NCBI GenBank assembly: GCA_017437755.1
Contig: JAFRXI010000061.1
Location: forward strand, 1-37,454
Direction: 5' to 3'
DNA from: Bacteroidales bacterium
GTDB lineage: Bacteria > Bacteroidota > Bacteroidia > Bacteroidales > UBA932
DNA: 37,454 bases
Shown: in pieces, positions 3,503-20,996 of the stretch
Layout of the letters: every line of letters starts with the position of its first letter
How positions within the stretch are numbered: the first letter of the stretch is position 1
Notes under the pieces: generated by a model
The model's input: only the letters and a program-made list of their open reading frames with translations
What the model was told of the DNA's origin: nothing
The model's database searches: none
Position numbers and translations under genes: made by a program

Positions 3503-6143
3503 CCTTCCGGGCCGCACGGGCGGCCCTGCGTTCCTTCTGCTTCTGATAACGGGCCATGTACTTACGCAGGGTCCGTTGTTCTTTTTCAGAACGCTTCTGC
3601 TGCTTCTTCAGGGCCTCGAGGGTTTCCTTACGCTTCTTGGCCAGTTTCTTGGCCTCCTTTGCGGCGGCCTTTTCGGCGTCCTTGCGGTCCAGTTCCGCCC
3701 AGCGGGCCTCCCTGGCAGCCTGTTTTTCTGCCTTGATCCTCTCCCTTTCCGCCTTGGCTGCCTCCTTTGCGGCCACCTTCGGATCCACCGCGGGAACATT
3801 TGAAGACCGGGAAACCGTATCACGGATGGTTGTACCCAGGCTGTCGACAGGTGCGACCGGAGCCGAAACGCTGTCAACCGGCTCCCGCACGGCCATCTCA
3901 AGCGAAAGGGAATCGGCCGTCGCAAGGCTGTCGGCCATCATTGCTATTTCCGGGTCGGCCTCACGCCTGAGGGCACGTTCCCTGCTCCTGACGGCCTCCA
4001 GCGAATCGCGTTTGGCCATCTCCTTGTAAATCTTGTTCATGTAGCCAGGGAAATAGATCGCGGTCTCCGGATAATCGGCCCTGGGATGCGCCAGGTAGCT
4101 GTTTCTCTGGGATGGCCTCGGTTCAAGCGGGGTGATGTCCTCCCGCCCCTTGGGCCGGCGGTCGGGATCCCAGCGGAAGCCCTTCAACTCACTGTCTTCC
4201 TTTGGCAGCTGGACCACCGGATAGGCGTCGTTCTTGGCGTCCTCGAAATAGGTGATGTTATCCAGGTCCCCGTCCCGGAACAGGGCATAGATCATCTTTG
4301 CATCCACCTTGTTCACCGTGGCGATGACATCCTCTTCCCTTAGGAAGAACAGGGCCGTCGCCCCTCCAAGGGCGTCAAAGCGCGAAAGCGTCCCGGTACT
4401 GTCGAAGTACGCCAGCATCTCCGCCCCCCTTATCTGGTCAAAATGGAGGGTGTCTTCCATTGTGGTGATGAACGAGTTGGACATCAGGCTGGCCTTGTCG
4501 ACGGCCTCGTTCCTGACCCTGACGAAGATGCTGTCGGCGCTGTACTGGCGGTTGCCCTCATTGTAGACTATGGGGTCGATGTACAGGCGGGCCAGGGAAT
4601 CCAGGTCGCAGTAGACCAGCGAGTCGCATACCATCTGGATATCCTCCCGGAACAGTTTCACGTTGCCCGTTGCCCAGAGGAATCCCACCTTGGTTGAATC
4701 CTTGGGGCCCTCCAGGGTGTCGGAAGGGGCCAGCAGACTGTCGGAGGGTGCCAGCAGACTGTCGGAAGGAGCCGACAAAGAATCCAACGGTGCCGAAAGC
4801 GAATCCAGGGGGACGGTAAGCGAATCCATGGGAACGGCGAGTGAATCCGCCGGAACGGAAAGTGAATCCGACGGCACTGCCAGGGAATCCACCGGGGCGG
4901 CCACGGAATCGACCGGTACAGACGAGGTATCTGCAGGTACCGGCACCGGAGCCGCATCCTCCTCCGAAGGAGTATCTAAAGGGAGCTTTCCGGTCCGGGC
5001 GTCACTTTTCCTCATGGCTATGTCCGGGGGCCGGTTGGGGTCGTTCATCGCCGCTTCCTCGGCAGCCTTTGCCGCCGCCTCCGCAGCCTTCCTCCGGAAC
5101 TCGCTGACCGGATCGGCCTCCATGTCTTCCAGCCGTTTCTTGGCATCGGGGACATACAGGGTGTCTATCTGGAACATCATGAACGTCCTGTAAACCAGGG
5201 TATCTCCGCCAAAATAGACGGTATCCTTCCGCTGCTCCGATTCAGAAATCGACATTATGGCCGGCTTTCGGGTCATGGTGACTTCCGACAGCGAATCCAC
5301 GTAAACCAGTTGCCCGGCAAGTCCGTACACATTGCGCGTGGTATCCATAATCTCGGCGTTCCCGAGCATGCGCACGTCGCCGGTTGCACGGTTGTAGAAC
5401 AGCGAATCGGTCCATGCCTCCTGGTCCTGGGTAAGCACATGCACCTTCTTGCGGAAGAAAAACAGGTCTATGTCCCTCTGGAACCAGCCGTCGTCGGCCG
5501 ACAGCATGTTCTCGTCCTGCCAGGCATCGGTGCCGTACCCGAAATAGGCCCGGCTCTCGTCGGAATTATATACGAGCCTGGATGTCTTGACGAACGTTGA
5601 ATCCGCAAACATGTTGACGTGGTCCATGAAGGTGAAGGTCTTCTCCTTTCCGTCGTACGACCCGAAACGGCTCTCGATGATCTGGCCGTCGTGGTCCCTC
5701 ATGGAACCTCCGCTCTGGAATACGGCTATACTGTCCTTGGTATTATAGTCCAGGTACCTGGTTCTCAGGGTGTTCTTATCCTTGTCCTGAAGCTGGACCA
5801 GCTGCCCCCTGAACTTGGCCAGGTCCTCGTCTATCACGTATTCCAGGCTCTCGCTGGTCAGGGTGGTCCGGTCCTGGAGGATCTTCACATGCCCCAGGGC
5901 CTTTATTATCTGCGTATCCACGTTCCAGTAGGCCGTGTCGCAGAGCAGGTAGGTATTGTTATGGAAAAACTTTGCCGGGCCTATCACCTTGCGGAAATGC
6001 TCTCCGCCTTCCTCGATGAGCTGGGCCGACTGGGCGCTGATCAGGGTGACCAGACTGTCGGACCTGTCCTTCCGCTGGGCGGACAAGGCGAAGGGCAGCG
6101 CCAGAAGGGCTGCCGCAAGGATGGTCCGGGGACAGAAACGCAT
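3465..6143 (-). CDS. OstA/LptA-like periplasmic protein with repeat linker and charged C-terminal helix
   Basis: An 892-residue exported protein (signal peptide about 1-22, ending ALSAQ). The N-terminal part (about 30-330) reads as an OstA-like, LptA-type beta-taco fold, with repeated strands describing DTAYWNVDTQIIKALGHVKI-type units. A second OstA-like block lies around 485-620. Between them, residues about 405-478 are a low-complexity linker of hexapeptides of the form A/V-P-x-D-S-L. The last 130 or so residues are almost pure Lys/Ala/Glu/Arg, predicted as a long charged helix. Members of this Bacteroidota family are taken to act in LPS transport or outer-membrane assembly. It is the last gene of the guaB operon, one base after the SurA-like gene, which supports an envelope role. 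The exact function is inferred. Confidence 0.8.
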   Translation of the reverse strand: MRFCPRTILAAALLALPFALSAQRKDRSDSLVTLISAQSAQLIEEGGEHFRKVIGPAKFFHNNTYLLCDTAYWNVDTQIIKALGHVKILQDRTTLTSESLEYVIDEDLAKFRGQLVQLQDKDKNTLRTRYLDYNTKDSIAVFQSGGSMRDHDGQIIESRFGSYDGKEKTFTFMDHVNMFADSTFVKTSRLVYNSDESRAYFGYGTDAWQDENMLSADDGWFQRDIDLFFFRKKVHVLTQDQEAWTDSLFYNRATGDVRMLGNAEIMDTTRNVYGLAGQLVYVDSLSEVTMTRKPAIMSISESEQRKDTVYFGGDTLVYRTFMMFQIDTLYVPDAKKRLEDMEADPVSEFRRKAAEAAAKAAEEAAMNDPNRPPDIAMRKSDARTGKLPLDTPSEEDAAPVPVPADTSSVPVDSVAAPVDSLAVPSDSLSVPADSLAVPMDSLTVPLDSLSAPLDSLSAPSDSLLAPSDSLLAPSDTLEGPKDSTKVGFLWATGNVKLFREDIQMVCDSLVYCDLDSLARLYIDPIVYNEGNRQYSADSIFVRVRNEAVDKASLMSNSFITTMEDTLHFDQIRGAEMLAYFDSTGTLSRFDALGGATALFFLREEDVIATVNKVDAKMIYALFRDGDLDNITYFEDAKNDAYPVVQLPKEDSELKGFRWDPDRRPKGREDITPLEPRPSQRNSYLAHPRADYPETAIYFPGYMNKIYKEMAKRDSLEAVRSRERALRREADPEIAMMADSLATADSLSLEMAVREPVDSVSAPVAPVDSLGTTIRDTVSRSSNVPAVDPKVAAKEAAKAERERIKAEKQAAREARWAELDRKDAEKAAAKEAKKLAKKRKETLEALKKQQKRSEKEQRTLRKYMARYQKQKERRAARAARKVKPQQTAIPDSE

Positions 6144-8413: not shown

Positions 8414-9888
<1,475 letters not shown>

Positions 9889-15573: not shown

Positions 15574-17121
15574 ATGAGGAAAATCATAACTTCAGTGCTT
15601 TCAGCCGCCTTGTTCCTGGCAACGGTTCCTGCCATGGCACAGGCCCCGGCTCCCGCCAGAAAATCCGTCCGCAAGAACACCCAGGCCCAGCGATATGTAC
15701 GCATCCTGGAAAAGAACCGCGGGTTCGCCACCGCATCCTGGGGCGTGCTGGCACTGGACGCCAAGGGCGACACCCTGGCCGAATACCGCAGCCGCACCAA
15801 GCTGGTCCCGGCATCCAACATGAAACTGATAACGGCCGGGACAGCCCTGCACTCGCTGGGAGCGGATTTCAAGTACCAGACCACCATCGCATGCAGCGGC
15901 AGCGTATCGGAAGGCGTCCTCGACGGTGACGTCTATATCATCGGCGGAGGCGACCCCACCACCGCCTCAAAGGACTCCATCGCCATTCCGGCCGACGGCC
16001 TTTTCTGGAAATGGAAGACCTTCCTCCGCAGCAGCGGAATCGCCACCGTCAAAGGCCGGGTGATAGGTGACGGCAGGTATTTCGACGGCGCCCGGGAAAA
16101 CAGCACCTGGACCTACGACGATATCGGAACCGCCTACGGCACAGGCGGAAGCGGTCTTTCATTCTACGGCAACGCGCAGGACTTTGCCGTCAGCGCCGGG
16201 ACCTCCGCCGGAGCCCCGGTCAACATCTCGGTGGTATACCCCTCGACGCCCTGGATGAAGTACTCCCACCATGCCGTCACCGGGCCGGCCGGCACGGGGA
16301 ACAGCCTTTACCTCTTCACCACCGACCTCGCCCCGACCGGCGGGATACGCGGCACCTTCGCCCTGGACCGCAAGCCCAAGACCGAGGAGTTCTCCAACAA
16401 GTTCCCGGAAATGACCTGCGCCAGCTATTTTGTCAGGAACCTCGAAGGCAGCGGGATAAAGGTGGAAGGCGGATATGCCGACATCGACCCTGACGGCGAC
16501 GTCCGCGGCGGCGACTTCCTCAAGAAAGGCAGGGCCCTGCCGCCCGACAGTCTCAGGGTACTGGGCCGGTCCCAGTCGCCGGAACTATGGAAAATAGCCC
16601 TCGAGACTCTCCACCGCAGCGATAACTTCTATGCCGAAACCCTTTTCCGCACCATGGGGCTGAAAGCCTCAGGCACAGCCGTTTACGACAGCTGCAAGGT
16701 GGCCGTGGCAGATGTTCTGGACGCCCTCGGGAAGTTCCCTGCCGACGGAATCAGGATCGAGGACGGAAGCGGCCTTTCGAGGAGGAACTACCTTTCGCCG
16801 GAATACATGACCGCCTTCCTCGGGGCAATGAAACGCTCCCCCGCCTACGCCTCGTTCCTCAAGACGCTCCCCTCGCCCGGCAGCAACGGTACCCTGAAAC
16901 GGGTCCTGCCCTCCGAACAGCCGGCGCTTAAGTCCAGGATAAAGATGAAAAGCGGATCTATGGACGGAATCCTCTGCTACAGCGGCTACATCCTGCCCTC
17001 CGACGGCAAAGCGGAAGACGCCATCGTCTTTTCCATAATGACCAACAACTGCACCCTCCCGGTGCCGCAGGTCAGGGCTGCCATCACCCGCATAATCGCC
17101 CTGCTGGCTGCAGGGAACTGA
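15574..17121 (+). CDS. dacB: D-alanyl-D-alanine carboxypeptidase/endopeptidase (PBP4 type, family S13)
   Basis: A 515-residue exported penicillin-binding protein with signal peptide 1-22 (ending VPAMA). It acts on peptidoglycan stem peptides in the periplasm. The three active-site motifs are S81-N-M-K84 (S-x-x-K), S349-D-N351 (S-x-N) and K459-S-G461, where the family usually has KTG; Ser for Thr is a mild, tolerated change. A large insertion between motifs 1 and 2 is typical of S13. Start is the ATG at 15574, just downstream of a TAATTTTG box; the longer frame from 15478 would overlap galE. The stop is followed within six bases by structured repeat copy 1. Confidence 0.93.
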   Translation: MRKIITSVLSAALFLATVPAMAQAPAPARKSVRKNTQAQRYVRILEKNRGFATASWGVLALDAKGDTLAEYRSRTKLVPASNMKLITAGTALHSLGADFKYQTTIACSGSVSEGVLDGDVYIIGGGDPTTASKDSIAIPADGLFWKWKTFLRSSGIATVKGRVIGDGRYFDGARENSTWTYDDIGTAYGTGGSGLSFYGNAQDFAVSAGTSAGAPVNISVVYPSTPWMKYSHHAVTGPAGTGNSLYLFTTDLAPTGGIRGTFALDRKPKTEEFSNKFPEMTCASYFVRNLEGSGIKVEGGYADIDPDGDVRGGDFLKKGRALPPDSLRVLGRSQSPELWKIALETLHRSDNFYAETLFRTMGLKASGTAVYDSCKVAVADVLDALGKFPADGIRIEDGSGLSRRNYLSPEYMTAFLGAMKRSPAYASFLKTLPSPGSNGTLKRVLPSEQPALKSRIKMKSGSMDGILCYSGYILPSDGKAEDAIVFSIMTNNCTLPVPQVRAAITRIIALLAAGN

Positions 17122-17126
17122 TAATT

Positions 17127-17246
17127 GTTACCTGTCTCTGTTTCGAAACCATATGCACCCGCGCATGTAGCGGGAGGGGCCCCCTGCCGCAAGGCTGGGA
17201 GGGACGAGGCCGAAAGGCCGAGGGTGGAGAAACAGAGACAGGTAAC
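17127..17246 (+). repeat. Structured repeat element, copy 1
   Basis: The element fills the gap between dacB and radA, which converge. Perfect 18-base inverted arms (17127-17144 and 17229-17246) enclose a core nearly identical to copy 2 at 20878-20996. Inside are hairpins CCCGC/GCGGG (17158-17174), CCCTGCC with GCAA loop (17182-17199, one mismatch) and GGCC-GAAA-GGCC (17208-17219). The core contains GCGCATGTAGCGGGAGGGGC and GGACGAGGCCG. It could be a structured RNA, a REP-like element or a large terminator. The family is not one I can name. Confidence 0.75.
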
Positions 17247-17251
17247 ACTAC

Positions 17252-18622
17252 CTAATTTCCGAACAGGGAGCGGACAAGGGCGGCGATGTCGGCAACCTTG
17301 ACAATGGTGATGCCGTCCACCCCGTGGTCTACCTTGGAATACTGCGACACGTATATCTTCCTCAGGCCCAGGCGCGAAGCCTCTCCGGCCCGCCTTTCCA
17401 CCTGCGGCACCGGACGGATCTCACCGCTGAGGCCGACCTCGCCGGCGAAGCACACGTTCCTGGGCACCGGAACGTCGAAATTCGACGACAGCACTGCGGC
17501 GATCACGGCCAGGTCGCAGGCTGGATCGTTTATCCTCATTCCGCCCGCCATGTTCAGGAACACGTCCTTCTGCGCCAGCTTGAAACCGGCCCTGCGCTCC
17601 AGTACGGCCAGCAGCATGTTGAGCCGCCTCACGTCAAAACCGGTGGCGGAGCGCTGCGCGGTGCCGTAAACTGCGCTGGAAACCAGGGCCTGCACCTCGA
17701 AGAGGAACGGTCTGGCCCCGTCCAGCATCACGCTGACGGCGGTGCCGCTGAGATCCTCGCCATGGAACGGCATCAGCATCTCCGACGGATTCTCCACTGT
17801 TCTCAGACCGGTACCCGTCATCTCGAATACGGCGAGTTCCGACGTTGATCCAAAACGGTTCTTGATGCTGCGGAGTATCCTGTAGGCACCGCGGTTCTCG
17901 CCCTCGAACTGCAGGACCACGTCCACAATGTGTTCCAGGACCTTGGGCCCGGCGATGGAGCCCTCCTTGGTGATGTGGCCTATGAGTATCACCGGTATCC
18001 CCGAGCCCTTTGCAAAACGGAGCAGGCTGGCGGCCACTTCCTTTATCTGCGACACGCTCCCGGCTGTGGATTCCACACCGTTGCAATACATGGTCTGCAC
18101 CGAGTCCACTATCATCAGGTCAGGGGCAATCCTCTGGGCCTCAGACAGTATGCTGTCCATAAGGGTCTCGCTGTAGATATAGCATCCCGAGGAATCGCCT
18201 CCAAGGCGGTCGGCCCTCATCCGGACCTGGCGGACGCTTTCCTCACCGGTGACATAAAGTGTCCTGAGCCCCGGGCAGGAAAGAGGGATCTGGAGCGACA
18301 GGGTGGACTTGCCGATCCCCGGCTCGCCGCCGATCAGCACCAGGGAACCCTTGACGATTCCCCCTCCGAGTATCCTGTCGACCTCGGCACTGCCCAGCGA
18401 AATCCTGTCCTCGCCAACCTCTTCCACGGCCGACAGGGCCATGGGAGACCTGCCCTCGCCAGGTATTGAAGCAGACAGCACCTTCTTTCCGGTTGAAGGT
18501 CCTGAAGGCTGTTCCACCATCGTATTCCACTCACCGCAGGACGGACACCTGCCCATCCATTTGGCGCTCTCGTTGCCGCAATTGGAGCAGAACCAGAGAG
18601 TCTTTGTCTTTCCCGTTGCCAT
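17252..18622 (-). CDS. radA: DNA repair protein RadA (Sms)
   Basis: A 456-residue cytosolic RecA-like ATPase that promotes branch migration during recombinational repair. It has the N-terminal zinc finger CSNCG...CPSCG (about 9-32), Walker A GGEPGIGKST (about 95-105), the RadA-specific KNRFG motif (about 253-257), and a C-terminal Lon-protease-like domain containing GEVGLSGEIRPV. All elements are intact and the length is standard. The ATG at 18622 (MATGKTKTLWFC) is preferred over a start five codons upstream, because the zinc finger normally begins near residue 10 and a promoter-like TATCTTCG overlaps the longer start. Confidence 0.96.
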   Translation of the reverse strand: MATGKTKTLWFCSNCGNESAKWMGRCPSCGEWNTMVEQPSGPSTGKKVLSASIPGEGRSPMALSAVEEVGEDRISLGSAEVDRILGGGIVKGSLVLIGGEPGIGKSTLSLQIPLSCPGLRTLYVTGEESVRQVRMRADRLGGDSSGCYIYSETLMDSILSEAQRIAPDLMIVDSVQTMYCNGVESTAGSVSQIKEVAASLLRFAKGSGIPVILIGHITKEGSIAGPKVLEHIVDVVLQFEGENRGAYRILRSIKNRFGSTSELAVFEMTGTGLRTVENPSEMLMPFHGEDLSGTAVSVMLDGARPFLFEVQALVSSAVYGTAQRSATGFDVRRLNMLLAVLERRAGFKLAQKDVFLNMAGGMRINDPACDLAVIAAVLSSNFDVPVPRNVCFAGEVGLSGEIRPVPQVERRAGEASRLGLRKIYVSQYSKVDHGVDGITIVKVADIAALVRSLFGN

Positions 18623-18626
18623 GACG

Positions 18627-18634
18627 CGAAGATA
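18627..18634 (-). promoter_or_regulatory. Putative -7 box for radA
   Basis: The minus strand reads TATCTTCG, seven of eight to TAnnTTTG, ending four bases before the radA ATG at 18622. That predicts an almost leaderless mRNA. It lies directly after the terminator of the upstream gene. Confidence 0.45.
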
Positions 18635-18635
18635 C

Positions 18636-18669
18636 AAAAAAAAGATATTGTTCCTTTGGGGACAATATC
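18636..18669 (-). terminator. Strong intrinsic terminator of the mini-lipoprotein gene
   Basis: On the minus strand an 11-base-pair stem (GATATTGTCCC paired with GGAACAATATC, one G-T pair, four-base loop; 18644-18669) is followed at once by eight T (18636-18643). It sits between the small lipoprotein gene and the radA promoter. Confidence 0.88.
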
Positions 18670-18706
18670 AATTTTGACGTGATGCACCACAAGGGTGCGG
18701 TCCGAA

Positions 18707-18901
18707 TTACTCAGCGACTACGGTCTGGGCAGCGGCGCAGCAGGAATCAGCGGCAGCGCAGCAGGAGTCAGCCTTTTCGCAGCAATTCTCGGTGGCCTCG
18801 GCGGCCTCGGCTTCGGCAGCGGCCTTCTTGGGGCTGTTACCACAAGCAACTGCAGCACCCATCAGTGCAACAACTGCAAGAGACATAAATACCTTTTTCA
18901 T
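18707..18901 (-). CDS. Small lipoprotein with heptad-spaced Cys pairs
   Basis: A 64-residue predicted lipoprotein. The signal MKKVFMSLAVVALMGAAVAC ends at Cys20, the acylation site. The mature part is only about 44 residues, Ala/Glu-rich and probably helical. It contains three adjacent Cys pairs at 40-41, 47-48 and 54-55, exactly seven residues apart, in repeats of the form C-C-x-x-A-D-S. Such spacing would place all pairs on one face of a helix, suggesting metal or thiol chemistry in the periplasm or outer membrane. I do not recognise a named family. It has its own promoter (18935-18942) and a strong terminator, so it is a monocistronic, probably well-expressed gene. Confidence 0.82.
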   Translation of the reverse strand: MKKVFMSLAVVALMGAAVACGNSPKKAAAEAEAAEATENCCEKADSCCAAADSCCAAAQTVVAE

Positions 18902-18934
18902 CTTGATGAACAGTTAATTAAACAATTGTGGCCG

Positions 18935-18965
18935 CAAAATTACTCCTTATTTCTGACGGAAGCAA
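18935..18965 (-). promoter_or_regulatory. Putative promoter of the mini-lipoprotein gene
   Basis: The minus strand has TAATTTTG (18935-18942), matching TAnnTTTG, with TTG (18963-18965) 20 bases upstream. Predicted leader is about 30 bases. Confidence 0.65.
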
Positions 18966-18994
18966 GAAATATTTTGAATTTTTTTAATTTCCGC

Positions 18995-19486
18995 CTACCT
19001 TTTCACCTCCAGCACCTCCATTTTGGAGATATCGCCCCCCTCTATCCTGAATCTCAGGGCAGTACGTACCGCATGCCATCCCTGGATACCCGCCGCTCCG
19101 GGATTGACGTACAGCATGTCATACTTTGGATCATGCATGACCTTGAGGATATGGGAGTGTCCGCAGACGAAGAGTTTGGGCCTCAGTATCTCTATCAGCT
19201 CCTTGGCCCTTGGATAATAGTGTCCGGGCGAGCCGCCGATATGCATCATCAGCACGCTCATCCCCTCGCAGTCCCAGCACTTGTATTCCGGATATTGATA
19301 ACGTAAATCAAAGCTGTCGCAATTCCCGTAAACGCCCACAAGCGGCTTGAACTCAGCTATTTCCGCTGCCGTATCGAGTCCTCCTCCAAAGTCCCCGGCA
19401 TGCCAGATCTCATCCACCGGCGAGAGGAACTTCCAGAACTCGGGGCCAACCACCCCGTGGGTATCGGACAAAAGGCCTATGTACAT
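18995..19486 (-). CDS. YfcE/MJ0936-type metallophosphoesterase
   Basis: A 163-residue cytosolic calcineurin-like phosphoesterase. Metal-binding motifs appear in family order: SDTHG (D8, H10), HAGDFGG, YGNCD, then MHIGGSPGH and CGHSH near the C-terminus. Members hydrolyse phosphodiesters in vitro; the natural substrate is generally unknown. The length is typical of the small YfcE class. It starts two bases after the rsmE stop, and rsmE starts two bases after tsaC, so the three form a translation-factor and RNA-modification operon. Confidence 0.9.
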   Translation of the reverse strand: MYIGLLSDTHGVVGPEFWKFLSPVDEIWHAGDFGGGLDTAAEIAEFKPLVGVYGNCDSFDLRYQYPEYKCWDCEGMSVLMMHIGGSPGHYYPRAKELIEILRPKLFVCGHSHILKVMHDPKYDMLYVNPGAAGIQGWHAVRTALRFRIEGGDISKMEVLEVKR

Positions 19487-19488
19487 CG

Positions 19489-20208
19489 CTACATGAATTT
19501 GAAATATACCGCGGCGGCGGCAACCACGGCGGCAGTCTCAGTACGGAGACGCGACGCCCCAAGATGCACCGGGACGAATCCTGCCTCAACCGCGGCCCCT
19601 GCTTCGGCAGGGGAAAAATCGCCCTCCGGGCCAATGAGGACAACGATTTCATTCCCAGGAAAAGAGTCCAGGGCCGATTTGACGGAAACCCTCGGGACCT
19701 CCCCTTCAAAGCAATATGCAATGAGCTTAAGGGCGCCGGAGCCGGTACACTTACTGATGAACTCCGCCACCGGGACAGCCTCGGATATCTCCGGAACAGC
19801 AGCCTTGAGCGACTGCTTTGCGGCGGAAAGAGCCACCCTCACGGCCCTGTCGGTCTTGTAGACCTTCCGTTCGGAACGCTCCCCTATCAGCGGAACGATC
19901 CTGTCCACACCCATCTCCACGGCCTTTTCCACAAACCACTCAAATCGGTCGTTGTTCTTGGTGGGGCACACTCCGAGGGTAAGCCTGTAAGGATGCCCGC
20001 CCCAGCCTTCAAAGGACTCCAGCACGGTTGCGGCCACCGCCTTGGGCGAAGCCTCGTCAATCCGGCAGCGCAGCATGGTACTCTTTCCGTCCATCACGCA
20101 AATCACGTCACCGCAGCGATGCCTGAGCACCTTGACGCAGTGGGCGGCCTCCTCTTCGGAAAGCACCACCCTGCCGCCTTCAATATCCTTGGAATGAAAC
20201 AGTTCCAT
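19489..20208 (-). CDS. rsmE: 16S rRNA (uracil-1498-N3)-methyltransferase
   Basis: A 239-residue SPOUT-class methyltransferase that methylates N3 of U1498 in 16S rRNA using S-adenosylmethionine. The N-terminal PUA-like domain includes H-C-V-K-V-L-R-H. The central part has CPTKNNDRFEWFVEKAVEMG and RSERK. The C-terminal SAM-binding knot has IVVLIGPEGDFSPAE and LGASRLRTETAA, all diagnostic. It is in a tight operon between tsaC and the phosphoesterase. Confidence 0.95.
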   Translation of the reverse strand: MELFHSKDIEGGRVVLSEEEAAHCVKVLRHRCGDVICVMDGKSTMLRCRIDEASPKAVAATVLESFEGWGGHPYRLTLGVCPTKNNDRFEWFVEKAVEMGVDRIVPLIGERSERKVYKTDRAVRVALSAAKQSLKAAVPEISEAVPVAEFISKCTGSGALKLIAYCFEGEVPRVSVKSALDSFPGNEIVVLIGPEGDFSPAEAGAAVEAGFVPVHLGASRLRTETAAVVAAAAVYFKFM

Positions 20209-20210
20209 CT

Positions 20211-20813
20211 TTACATGCGGATTATTTTCACCTCTCCGTCCATGCCCACCTTGATGATCTGCGAAGCCCTGCCCGTGGCTCCTTTCTCCATCGAAGGGGA
20301 AACCACAAAGTCAACTGCCGAACGTATCTCCCCGGAAATCTCCTTGAAAGACCCCGGCGTACCCTCTCCCGAAATATTGGCCGACGTGGAAACCAAGGGC
20401 CTTCCTAGCTTGAAAATCAACGACTTGCAAAAATCCGACATGGGAATACGGATGCCAACGGAGCCGTCTTCCGCCACAGCGTTCCACGCAAGGTGGAAGC
20501 GGTCGCCCTTTTCTCCGGGCACCCCGGCCACGGCCTCGGGGTAGATTATGGTCATGGGGGCGTCGTTCACCTCAACCAGGTCCACCGCCATGGGCGGAAC
20601 CGCCTTCACGTACCTGGTCACCATGTCCAGGTCCGAGGCAAGCAGCACCAGCGACTTGCTGTCCTCCCTGCGCTTGATTGAGAACACCCTGGCAACGGCG
20701 TCGGGATTGGTGGCGTCGCACCCGATTCCCCAAACCGTATCGGTAGGATAAAGGATAACCCCTCCTTCGCGGAGGACCTTCAAGGTCTCAGAAATAATTT
20801 CCGGCATACCCAT
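20211..20813 (-). CDS. tsaC: Threonylcarbamoyl-AMP synthase (Sua5/YrdC/TsaC family)
   Basis: A 200-residue YrdC-fold enzyme that makes threonylcarbamoyl-AMP from Thr, bicarbonate and ATP for the t6A modification of ANN-reading tRNAs. Family motifs include GGVILYPTDTVWGIGCDA (about 16-33), FSIKRREDSKSLVLL, SVGIRIP and LGRPLVSTSANISGEGTP. It lacks the C-terminal Sua5 domain, so it is the short TsaC type. The ATG at 20807 (two codons in) is an equally plausible start. It is the first gene of an operon with rsmE and the phosphoesterase. A TATTTTTG box lies at 20830-20837 on the minus strand. Confidence 0.94.
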   Translation of the reverse strand: MGMPEIISETLKVLREGGVILYPTDTVWGIGCDATNPDAVARVFSIKRREDSKSLVLLASDLDMVTRYVKAVPPMAVDLVEVNDAPMTIIYPEAVAGVPGEKGDRFHLAWNAVAEDGSVGIRIPMSDFCKSLIFKLGRPLVSTSANISGEGTPGSFKEISGEIRSAVDFVVSPSMEKGATGRASQIIKVGMDGEVKIIRM

Positions 20814-20829
20814 TGTTCAAAAGTTTACG

Positions 20830-20837
20830 CAAAAATA
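20830..20837 (-). promoter_or_regulatory. Putative -7 box for tsaC-rsmE operon
   Basis: The minus strand reads TATTTTTG (matches TAnnTTTG), 16 bases upstream of the tsaC ATG at 20813. No TTTG box at the ideal distance. Confidence 0.55.
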
Positions 20838-20859
20838 CAAGAATCCAGTCAAAAATCAG

Positions 20860-20867
20860 TATTTTTG
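20860..20867 (+). promoter_or_regulatory. Putative -7 box reading into structured repeat copy 2 and the mutL operon
   Basis: TATTTTTG matches TAnnTTTG and lies 10 bases before the left arm of repeat copy 2. Transcription from here would carry the whole element in the 5' leader of the gene at 21010. No clear TTTG box is visible upstream. Confidence 0.5.
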
Positions 20868-20877
20868 TAAGTTAATA

Positions 20878-20996
20878 TATAACCTGCTTCGTTGAGAGAC
20901 CGTATGCAACCGCGCATGTAGCGGGAGGGGCCCGCGGCAAAGCCGTGGGAAGGACGAGGCCGGAGGCCGAGGGTCGGAAAACGAAGGCAGGTTATA
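20878..20996 (+). repeat. Structured repeat element, copy 2
   Basis: Arms TATAACCTGCTTCGTT (20878-20893) and its complement (20980-20996, one bulged base) enclose the same core as copy 1. Internal hairpins: CCGC/GCGG around GCATGTA, CCCGCGGC-AAA-GCCGTGGG (20931-20949), and GGCC-GGA-GGCC (20958-20968). Compared with copy 1, the arms and the middle hairpin differ in sequence but keep pairing, while unpaired core stretches are conserved. The element occupies most of the space between the promoter at 20860 and the start codon at 21010. Confidence 0.75.

Follow-up and report, generated by a model that had tools for sequence, protein, structure and literature searches.

Mobile DNA palindromes with a pseudoknotted core and site-specific, self-matching arms in Bacteroidales

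What is a structured element of about 120 bases that occurs twice in one bacterial contig with the same core and different outer arms: a functional RNA, or a piece of DNA that moves? The question is raised by a stretch of 37,454 nucleotides from a Bacteroidales bacterium (GenBank assembly GCA_017437755.1, contig JAFRXI010000061.1, positions 1 to 37,454 of the forward strand), henceforth termed the window. An earlier note, made from the letters alone, saw in the two copies a structured RNA family and named a repetitive extragenic palindromic (REP)-like element moved by a RAYT transposase and a compound terminator as alternatives. We find that both copies belong to a family of ~120-base mobile DNA palindromes that is spread through related gut bacteria and whose arms differ from site to site while matching each other within a copy. 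The explanation that we favor, at roughly even confidence, is a non-autonomous mobile palindrome whose arms grow into the target by fold-back or template-switch synthesis at insertion, with later template switching keeping the arms matched and flipping the core.

Direct reading confirmed two copies with a common core, the first running from 17126 to 17247. Covariance model R1, built from 28 copies (alignment A1), matched these two places and no others in the window at E<=5. The copies and their parts are as follows.

17126..17247, plus strand: copy 1, whole element, between convergent gene ends
17126..17144, plus strand: copy 1, 5' arm (stem P1), complementary at 19/19 positions to 17229-17247 (self-match)
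17229..17247, plus strand: copy 1, 3' arm (P1), pairs with 17126-17144
17148..17150, plus strand: copy 1, 5' strand of stem P2, pairs with 17223-17225, with an internal loop GAA/GGA outside P2
17153..17166, plus strand: copy 1, pseudoknot stem PK1, 17153-17156 with 17163-17166 (helix 3 of the covariation test)
17158..17174, plus strand: copy 1, pseudoknot stem PK2, 17158-17162 with 17170-17174, crosses PK1 (helix 4)
17180..17199, plus strand: copy 1, variable hairpin P3 with a CCC..GGG base
17208..17219, plus strand: copy 1, hairpin P4, GGCC-GAAA-GGCC
20878..20996, plus strand: copy 2, whole element, between divergent gene starts
20878..20893, plus strand: copy 2, 5' arm, read directly and from folding
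20980..20996, plus strand: copy 2, 3' arm, with one bulged base

The self-complementarity described earlier holds for both copies, with every position paired in copy 1 and 16 pairs and one bulged G in copy 2, as do the change in sequence of the middle hairpin between copies and the GGCC hairpin with its GAAA or GGA loop. Folding z-scores are -7.4 for copy 1 and -5.6 for copy 2, and 0 of 200 shuffles were as good for each.

The family extends well beyond the window. BLAST with copy 1 found 33 places in its own genome, and the copy 1 core was matched in 20 of 61 genomes of the same genus. R1 gave 53 matches at E<=0.01 in the own genome (150 candidates scored) and matches in 50 of the 61 same-genus genomes and 47 of 149 genomes across the family, the own genome being included in both counts. 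The search of Bacteroidales genomes that the earlier note had suggested thus uncovered a family of elements present in 12 of the 25 genera of one taxonomic family, own genus included. At the level of the class, R1 matched none of 246 other genomes, only the own one of 247, in a search with 15 candidates per genome and stricter filters that weak copies could escape. An exact core pattern occurred in 56 stretches of named genome contigs, 55 of them titled Bacteroidales or Bacteroidia, and many titles name ruminant samples (rumen, omasum, reticulum, abomasum). The one contig labelled Treponema (L171) is probably a binning error, i.e., mis-binned Bacteroidales DNA. No match was obtained with the exact core pattern in viral contigs or with BLAST against phages and plasmids. 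The compared sequences are genome assemblies, mostly metagenome-assembled genomes by title; arms that are kept in four assemblies (L087, L098, L109 and L121, among the pairs listed) argue against assembly artefacts.

Within the arms, the core is made up of an internal loop, the 3-bp stem P2, an H-type pseudoknot and the hairpins P3 and P4. The pseudoknot is absent from the earlier note: in copy 1, an ATGC/GCAT stem (PK1) crosses a CCCGC/GCGGG stem (PK2), and both stems show both-sided changes. In alignment A1, 93.8% of cells are paired versus 73.2% after shuffling, with a covariation of 0.537 versus 0.153. Alignment A2, comprising 109 distinct rows that cover P1, P2, PK1 and PK2, reaches 97.0% versus 60.2% and 0.916 versus 0.195, and sliding the partners by 1-3 columns lowers its pairing to 38.6-48.1%. 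Three PK1 pairs display 57, 63 and 47 both-sided changes among the 109 rows, with at most one unpaired row each, and the PK2 pairs 54, 13 and 1. A predicted H-type pseudoknot is therefore supported on both stems by the aligned sequences. The core itself has nested variation, with an extra stretch in the pseudoknot loop (GCCCCGCAAGGGC..CGGGA-like) in several copies (L128:13391-13554, L266, L271 and L273). A comparison of the window with Rfam (4227 families) returned two tRNAs at the gathering score and none on the element, and six weak matches at E<=10, none over the element. The covarying stems of the earlier note are borne out, with strong covariation relative to shuffled controls, and its failure to connect the core with any named Bacteroidota RNA agrees with the Rfam result at both thresholds.

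Since A1 was chosen partly by arm pairing and A2 was aligned to an arm-containing model, both alignments favor P1, and arm pairing was rechecked by comparing own with swapped arms in the places found by BLAST. This control, which is free of that bias, used 31 of the 33 places (two at contig ends were excluded). With the 5 innermost pairs left aside, a copy's own arms match at 12.6 of 15 positions on average and 28 of 31 copies reach 11, whereas arms swapped between copies match at 6.3 of 15, with 45 of 930 reaching 11. Among 14 A-type copies of the own genome (91 pairs), identity is 91% in the core without P3 and 37% in the outer arms. Copy 1 and L001, for example, have cores that are 97% identical and arms that are unrelated except for the inner GTTTC/GAAAC, the terminal complement, where P1 is best conserved. 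When arms were counted without gaps, 115 of 162 distinct copies were retained (median arm 20), the remainder failing or lying at the end of a locus; a low arm-score threshold that tolerated bulges, applied with no shuffled control, was passed by 115 of 117 distinct copies. Arms of 40 bases or longer occur in L070, L083 and L085, which together with L049 form a subtype in which a recurrent internal loop, AAGCGGA-like at its 5' side and GCGCA-like at its 3' side, is followed outwards by another long helix. In the GC-rich clusters L016, L018, L036, L037 and L178, two copies lie ~180-405 bases apart and have similar arms, unlike dispersed copies.

The origin of the arms can be approached where a filled site has an empty counterpart in a closely related species. 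At three compared sites, one arm holds resident sequence and the other its inverted copy (13, 13 and 19 bases), and at all three resident sequence also continues beyond the arms. A TruA-like site is filled in L266 (genome G310) and empty in L204 (G038), with flanks agreeing at 102/111 and 95/100 positions. The left arm of L266 opens with resident ACGGAGGAGGGTA and its inverted copy closes the right arm (12/13, p 6e-7), giving the order resident ACGGAGGAGGGTA, TGGTGTCGCAAACC, core, GGTTTGCGATACCA, TACCCTTCTCCGT (the inverted resident tract) and resident GGGTAATTATTGG, with arms that pair at 25/27 positions. Because L204 aligns gap-free across the site to a solved TruA (1dj0_A), the empty state has the native length; in L114 (G005), the same site holds a copy with other arms. 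A glycosyltransferase-like site is filled in L100 (G038) and L117 (G005) and empty in L233 (G310) and L234 (G037): the left arm of L100 starts with resident sequence (12/13 versus L234), its right arm ends with an inverted copy of resident GGTTCTGCGGAGG (12/13), and the resident right flank then resumes (20/26). At a Pterin_bind site, filled in L095 (G037) and empty in L211 (G310) with flanks 92% and 87% identical, the right arm is resident AGAAGGGCAATGTCCTGCC (16/19) and the left arm its inverted copy (16/19, p ~1e-7), the inverted tract being bounded by resident GGAGAT/ATCTCC; L211 can be aligned with solved dihydropteroate synthases, and the gap at the site is one residue long. As candidate direct target-site duplications, GGGTA stands on both sides at the TruA-like site and GAGG occurs at the glycosyltransferase-like site, and none was seen at the Pterin_bind site. 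In L207, L205, L130 (~3700-3940, 8600-8690), L272 and L276, another small repeat, containing TCATTCTGAGCG..GAAGAATCT or TCATTTCGA..GAGAAATCTCC, lies where sister species carry the palindrome, which suggests common permissive insertion spots.

These arrangements are consistent with a mechanism in which a core of ~80-90 nt, comprising a GTTTY/RAAAC terminal complement, a GRA/GGA loop, P2, the pseudoknot, P3 and P4, would insert between genes and, in certain species, without a frameshift at positions that encode loops of housekeeping proteins. At insertion, a growing 3' end would copy the core, fold back via the core's terminal complement and copy the strand just made by snap-back or template switch, extending the arms into the target; the conserved inner terminal complement could prime this fold-back synthesis. 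Later template switching between the arms would let them change in concert and flip the core. We infer the insertion step, as the link to RAYT discussed below is unproven and the sole RVT_1 match is UG26-like. A bolder version, to which we give little credence at present, is an element without any dedicated transposase: where a replication fork has stalled, the pseudoknotted core would be copied in at a motif that matches and would act as a fold-back primer, each insertion writing an inverted copy of its target and remaining invertible. For template switching between inverted repeats, the parts of the literature consulted document arm homogenization and spacer inversion (PMC8604942) as well as the creation and maintenance of hairpins (PMC8794818), and discuss it in connection with coding palindromes of nematomorph mitochondria (PMC6649704).

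Orthologous sites allow the steps after insertion to be followed. With flanks that align over 150 bases or more at either side and are 78-99.3% identical, 26 ortholog pairs have the same orientation and 12 opposite orientations. One of the flips, L122/L099, was discarded because the minus-strand match in L122 (23.6 bits) is a weak shadow of a plus-strand match. By our grouping the remaining 37 pairs represent 24 sites, with the core in opposite orientations at 8; two further flips separate L264 from L095 and L263, and L273 from L116. Among six of the 8 flipped sites, the arms are kept round the flipped core at four, which were read in detail (L111/L125, with flanks of 94-96%; L102 versus L093 and L110; L128/L129; L100/L117), and differ at L120/L091 and L089/L129; they are also kept in L264. 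Over 26 pairs and 520 arm columns, 389 columns are unchanged, 68 carry double Watson-Crick changes, 49 single changes and 14 other double changes. When five pairs with largely different arms are set apart (L088/L108, L222/L134, L090/L128, L106/L097 and L119/L106), the other 21 pairs leave 420 columns, of which 355 are unchanged, 40 carry single changes, 17 double Watson-Crick changes and 8 other double changes; 16 of the 40 singles belong to two pairs of L170 in which an arm is misplaced. Independent change at 13% flank divergence would, by our estimate, give ~95 single and 7 double changes in 420. Finally, L221 carries arms without a core at a site that is filled in two sister species (G005 and G038), and this bare palindrome, judged from the aligned orthologs, reads best as a loss of the core.

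A number of observations weigh against the fold-back explanation. The Pterin_bind site is filled in two more genomes, as L263 in G038 and as L264, which lies at a contig end, in G005, so that the empty state of L211 may be a secondary loss. The glycosyltransferase-like empties could be derived from the filled state by deletion between the GAGG repeats, and a search for a solved homolog of this gene, which would bear on polarity, found none. At the TruA-like site, only ACGGA (5 bases) beyond a common GGAGGGTA motif is surely inverted target, and sharing of arm edges could reflect target choice by homology; the inverted resident bases beyond a GGAGGGTA-like motif at the glycosyltransferase-like site are GGTTCTGC. 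A DapF-like site is weak (10/16, p 0.002), with a solved-structure alignment that is uninformative there, and an aminotransferase-like site was judged by eye. The remaining comparisons are unclean: L207 and L205 contain the other small repeat, L203 and L221 have the appearance of deletions and L269 that of a deletion derivative, and L240 and L262 are not attributable. The five pairs with largely different arms, which may be separate insertions, contribute 51 of the 68 double changes. Nor are the 5' arms random target DNA in G005, G037, G038 and G310 (43% G and 14% C in 28 distinct arms), several arms of this clade containing GGAGGGTA-like motifs; those of the own genome (17 arms) are not G-rich, with 25% G and 29% C. 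G.T exceeds A.C in the arms by 58:26, a modest excess of 46:27 after removal of similar arms that is uneven between groups (10:5 in the own genome, 15:15 in others, 21:7 in the sister clade) and hints at selection on RNA or single strands. Lastly, no mobilizing enzyme was found among the Y1_Tnp/RAYT, RVT_1 and neighbor genes examined.

L117 and L266 further share 23 of 25 arm bases although they lie in different genes, and part of an arm can therefore be element-carried in the sister clade. Such sharing would be expected if the element moved together with its arms into targets that have the arm edge (GGAGGGTA) in common, the arms then diversifying fast while template switching keeps them matched; both resident sites, glycosyltransferase- and TruA-like, indeed have a GGAGG(G/T)TA motif. 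We nevertheless regard carried arms as rather improbable, since A-type cores of the own genome are up to 97% identical with arms unrelated beyond ~5 inner pairs, and since the inverted copies exceed the common motif at all three sites, by GGTTCTGC, by ACGGA and, at Pterin_bind, with 19 bases. Arms that are older than the element, i.e., insertion into the loop of pre-existing palindromes such as intrinsic terminators, would suit the position of copy 1 between convergent genes and the bare palindrome of L221. This explanation is very unlikely given that the empty L204, L211, L233 and L234 have no such palindrome (6 bp, GGAGAT/ATCTCC, in L211), that many copies lie inside open reading frames (ORFs), and that the orthologs of L221 are filled, which favors core loss. 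The compound terminator of the earlier note likewise leaves unexplained why copies lie within genes or immediately upstream of a start codon. Strong covariation that includes both pseudoknot stems, together with the modest G.T excess, is what a functional structured RNA (a small RNA or cis-regulator spread by duplication, with stems under selection for pairing) would predict. Yet the element faces opposite ways at a given site in sister species and lies in frame, in either orientation, within housekeeping genes; both observations run counter to such an RNA, and template switching also makes compensatory changes (PMC8794818, in the part consulted), which leaves a functional RNA a quite unlikely explanation. 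What survives of the original proposal is a real family with covarying stems and a conserved core; a plain RNA gene does not fit elements that are dispersed, lie in ORFs and in both orientations, and have outer arms of 37% identity.

The remaining rival is a REP-like element mobilized by a RAYT, in which a Y1 (HUH) transposase would cut and join the folded single strand and the arms would be long REP-type stems. Y1_Tnp matches occur in 46 of the 61 same-genus genomes, 43 of them over the family cut-off, and the element is present in 44 of these 46 versus 6 of the 15 others (Fisher p 1.3e-5; Spearman 0.58). RAYT-like ORFs also lie in four element loci (L020, L037, L074 and L075; in L037, the nearer of two copies is ~450 bp upstream of the ORF). 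A look for RAYT genes in the own genome, as suggested in the earlier note, gave seven RAYT-like ORFs or matches (six Y1_Tnp, one with an internal stop, plus L020), and several RAYT/REP systems seem to coexist there. The correlation as a link to a mobilizer is nonetheless unproven, because the RAYT genes inspected have different palindromes of their own alongside: those adjoining the genes of L050-L053, L020 and L075 score at most 16.5 bits with filters off, versus 52-97 for copies in the same loci. In addition, six genomes with elements have no detected RAYT (one of them, 70% complete, with 15 elements), and repeat-tolerant genomes could account for both RAYT and element. GTAG is common in the core but lies within the pseudoknot loop rather than at a palindrome end, and other copies have GCAG, GTAA, TTAG or TCAG there. 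Taken together, RAYT mobilization seems doubtful, although the co-occurrence with Y1 genes stands as a weak point in its favor. The sole RVT_1 match of the own genome (L054:1264-2532) fits the UG26 (DRT) reverse transcriptase profile (E 2e-149), and a group II intron reverse transcriptase/maturase model stays far below its cut-off on this gene. A shared neighbor gene was rejected as mobilizer: among the 40 most connected ORFs listed, a RadA-like gene dominates, and its loci had been chosen deliberately.

The gene setting differs between the copies. Copy 1 is flanked by convergent genes, a Peptidase_S13 gene (stop at 17121) and a gene ending at 17252 that we read as RadA-like from its ATPase, zinc-ribbon and Lon_C-type Pfam matches. 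Copy 2 lies between divergent genes, a Sua5_yciO_yrdC gene (20813, minus strand) and an ORF of 102 amino acids (21010, plus strand) that has no Pfam match and whose ATG is separated from the copy by 13 bases. Elsewhere in the family, copies appear to sit in frame within housekeeping genes, even in the middle of essential-looking ones. Open frames, counted with no test for coding, extend for 30 codons or more both before and after the insert in 32 of the 45 copies listed for a sister clade of four genomes (one of the 45 being a weak duplicate on the antisense strand); in the own genome, this holds for 8 of 31 copies, several of them in GC-rich clusters. Nineteen open frames were translated, at least one of which (L120) is probably not the coding frame. 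In 5 of 10 ORFs scanned with Pfam, the insert is spanned by a domain or has domains before and after it (Radical_SAM_N; PseudoU_synth_1; FAD_syn and Flavokinase; UPF0004 and Radical_SAM; FAD_binding_4 and MurB_C, the last two surrounding the second of two inserts in one ORF). Four others showed one domain in two stretches, of which only the better was placed (Ala_racemase_N, DAP_epimerase, Aminotran_1_2 and Pterin_bind), and one a match only before the insert (TruB_N). Gene names narrower than these matches are our reading. In-gene copies occur in both orientations relative to the gene.

No title or abstract opening in the literature consulted describes this element. Its closest known kind would, by analogy, be the Rickettsia palindromic element (RPE), 105-146 bp palindromic repeats described both from intergenic positions and as in-frame inserts within conserved protein-coding genes (PMC2229807, whose reference list includes a report of in-frame palindromic elements in Rickettsia from 2000). 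Both are dispersed palindromes of ~100-150 bp with in-frame insertion in conserved genes, here in the sister clade, and a TruB_N gene holds the element here, just as RPE-1 interrupts a gene for tRNA pseudouridine synthase B (PMC3733652). A mechanism of RPE spread was not found in the parts of the RPE literature consulted. The comparison is by description only: RPEs are tabulated there with a 12-bp terminal inverted repeat, whereas the outer arms here are site-specific (identity 0.37), and the core has a covarying pseudoknot and occurs in both orientations at one site. REP, BIME and REPIN elements with their RAYTs resemble the family in being short dispersed palindromes with RAYT-like proteins in the same genomes and often a GTAG. 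REPs are, however, described as 20-40 bp long with the tag at one end (PMC3733652, as far as consulted), unlike the GTAG in the pseudoknot loop here, and the RAYT genes inspected are flanked by other palindromes. Miniature inverted-repeat transposable elements (MITEs) such as ERIC, Correia/NEMIS and RUP are also non-autonomous, similar in size and in some cases in frame in genes, but the consulted part of PMC2229807 gives them family-wide terminal inverted repeats, while terminal repeats differ between sites here. Template-switched quasipalindromes share arm homogenization and spacer inversion between inverted-repeat arms (PMC8604942, PMC8794818, PMC6649704); the inverted spacers in the yeast work, as far as consulted, measure 2-5 bp, and here a core of ~80-90 bases is inserted and later flipped. 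We therefore file the family as a palindromic mobile repeat set apart from RPE (by description, not sequence), REP and MITE.

Occupied and empty sites, flips and core-less arms in closely related species make insertion, inversion and loss of this element directly comparable. If true, an inverted copy of the target made at insertion would be an unusual integration product, and mobility by template switching would represent a distinct class of transposition. The family also carries a warning: strong covariation of stems, often read as proof of a functional RNA, can stem from a mutational process.

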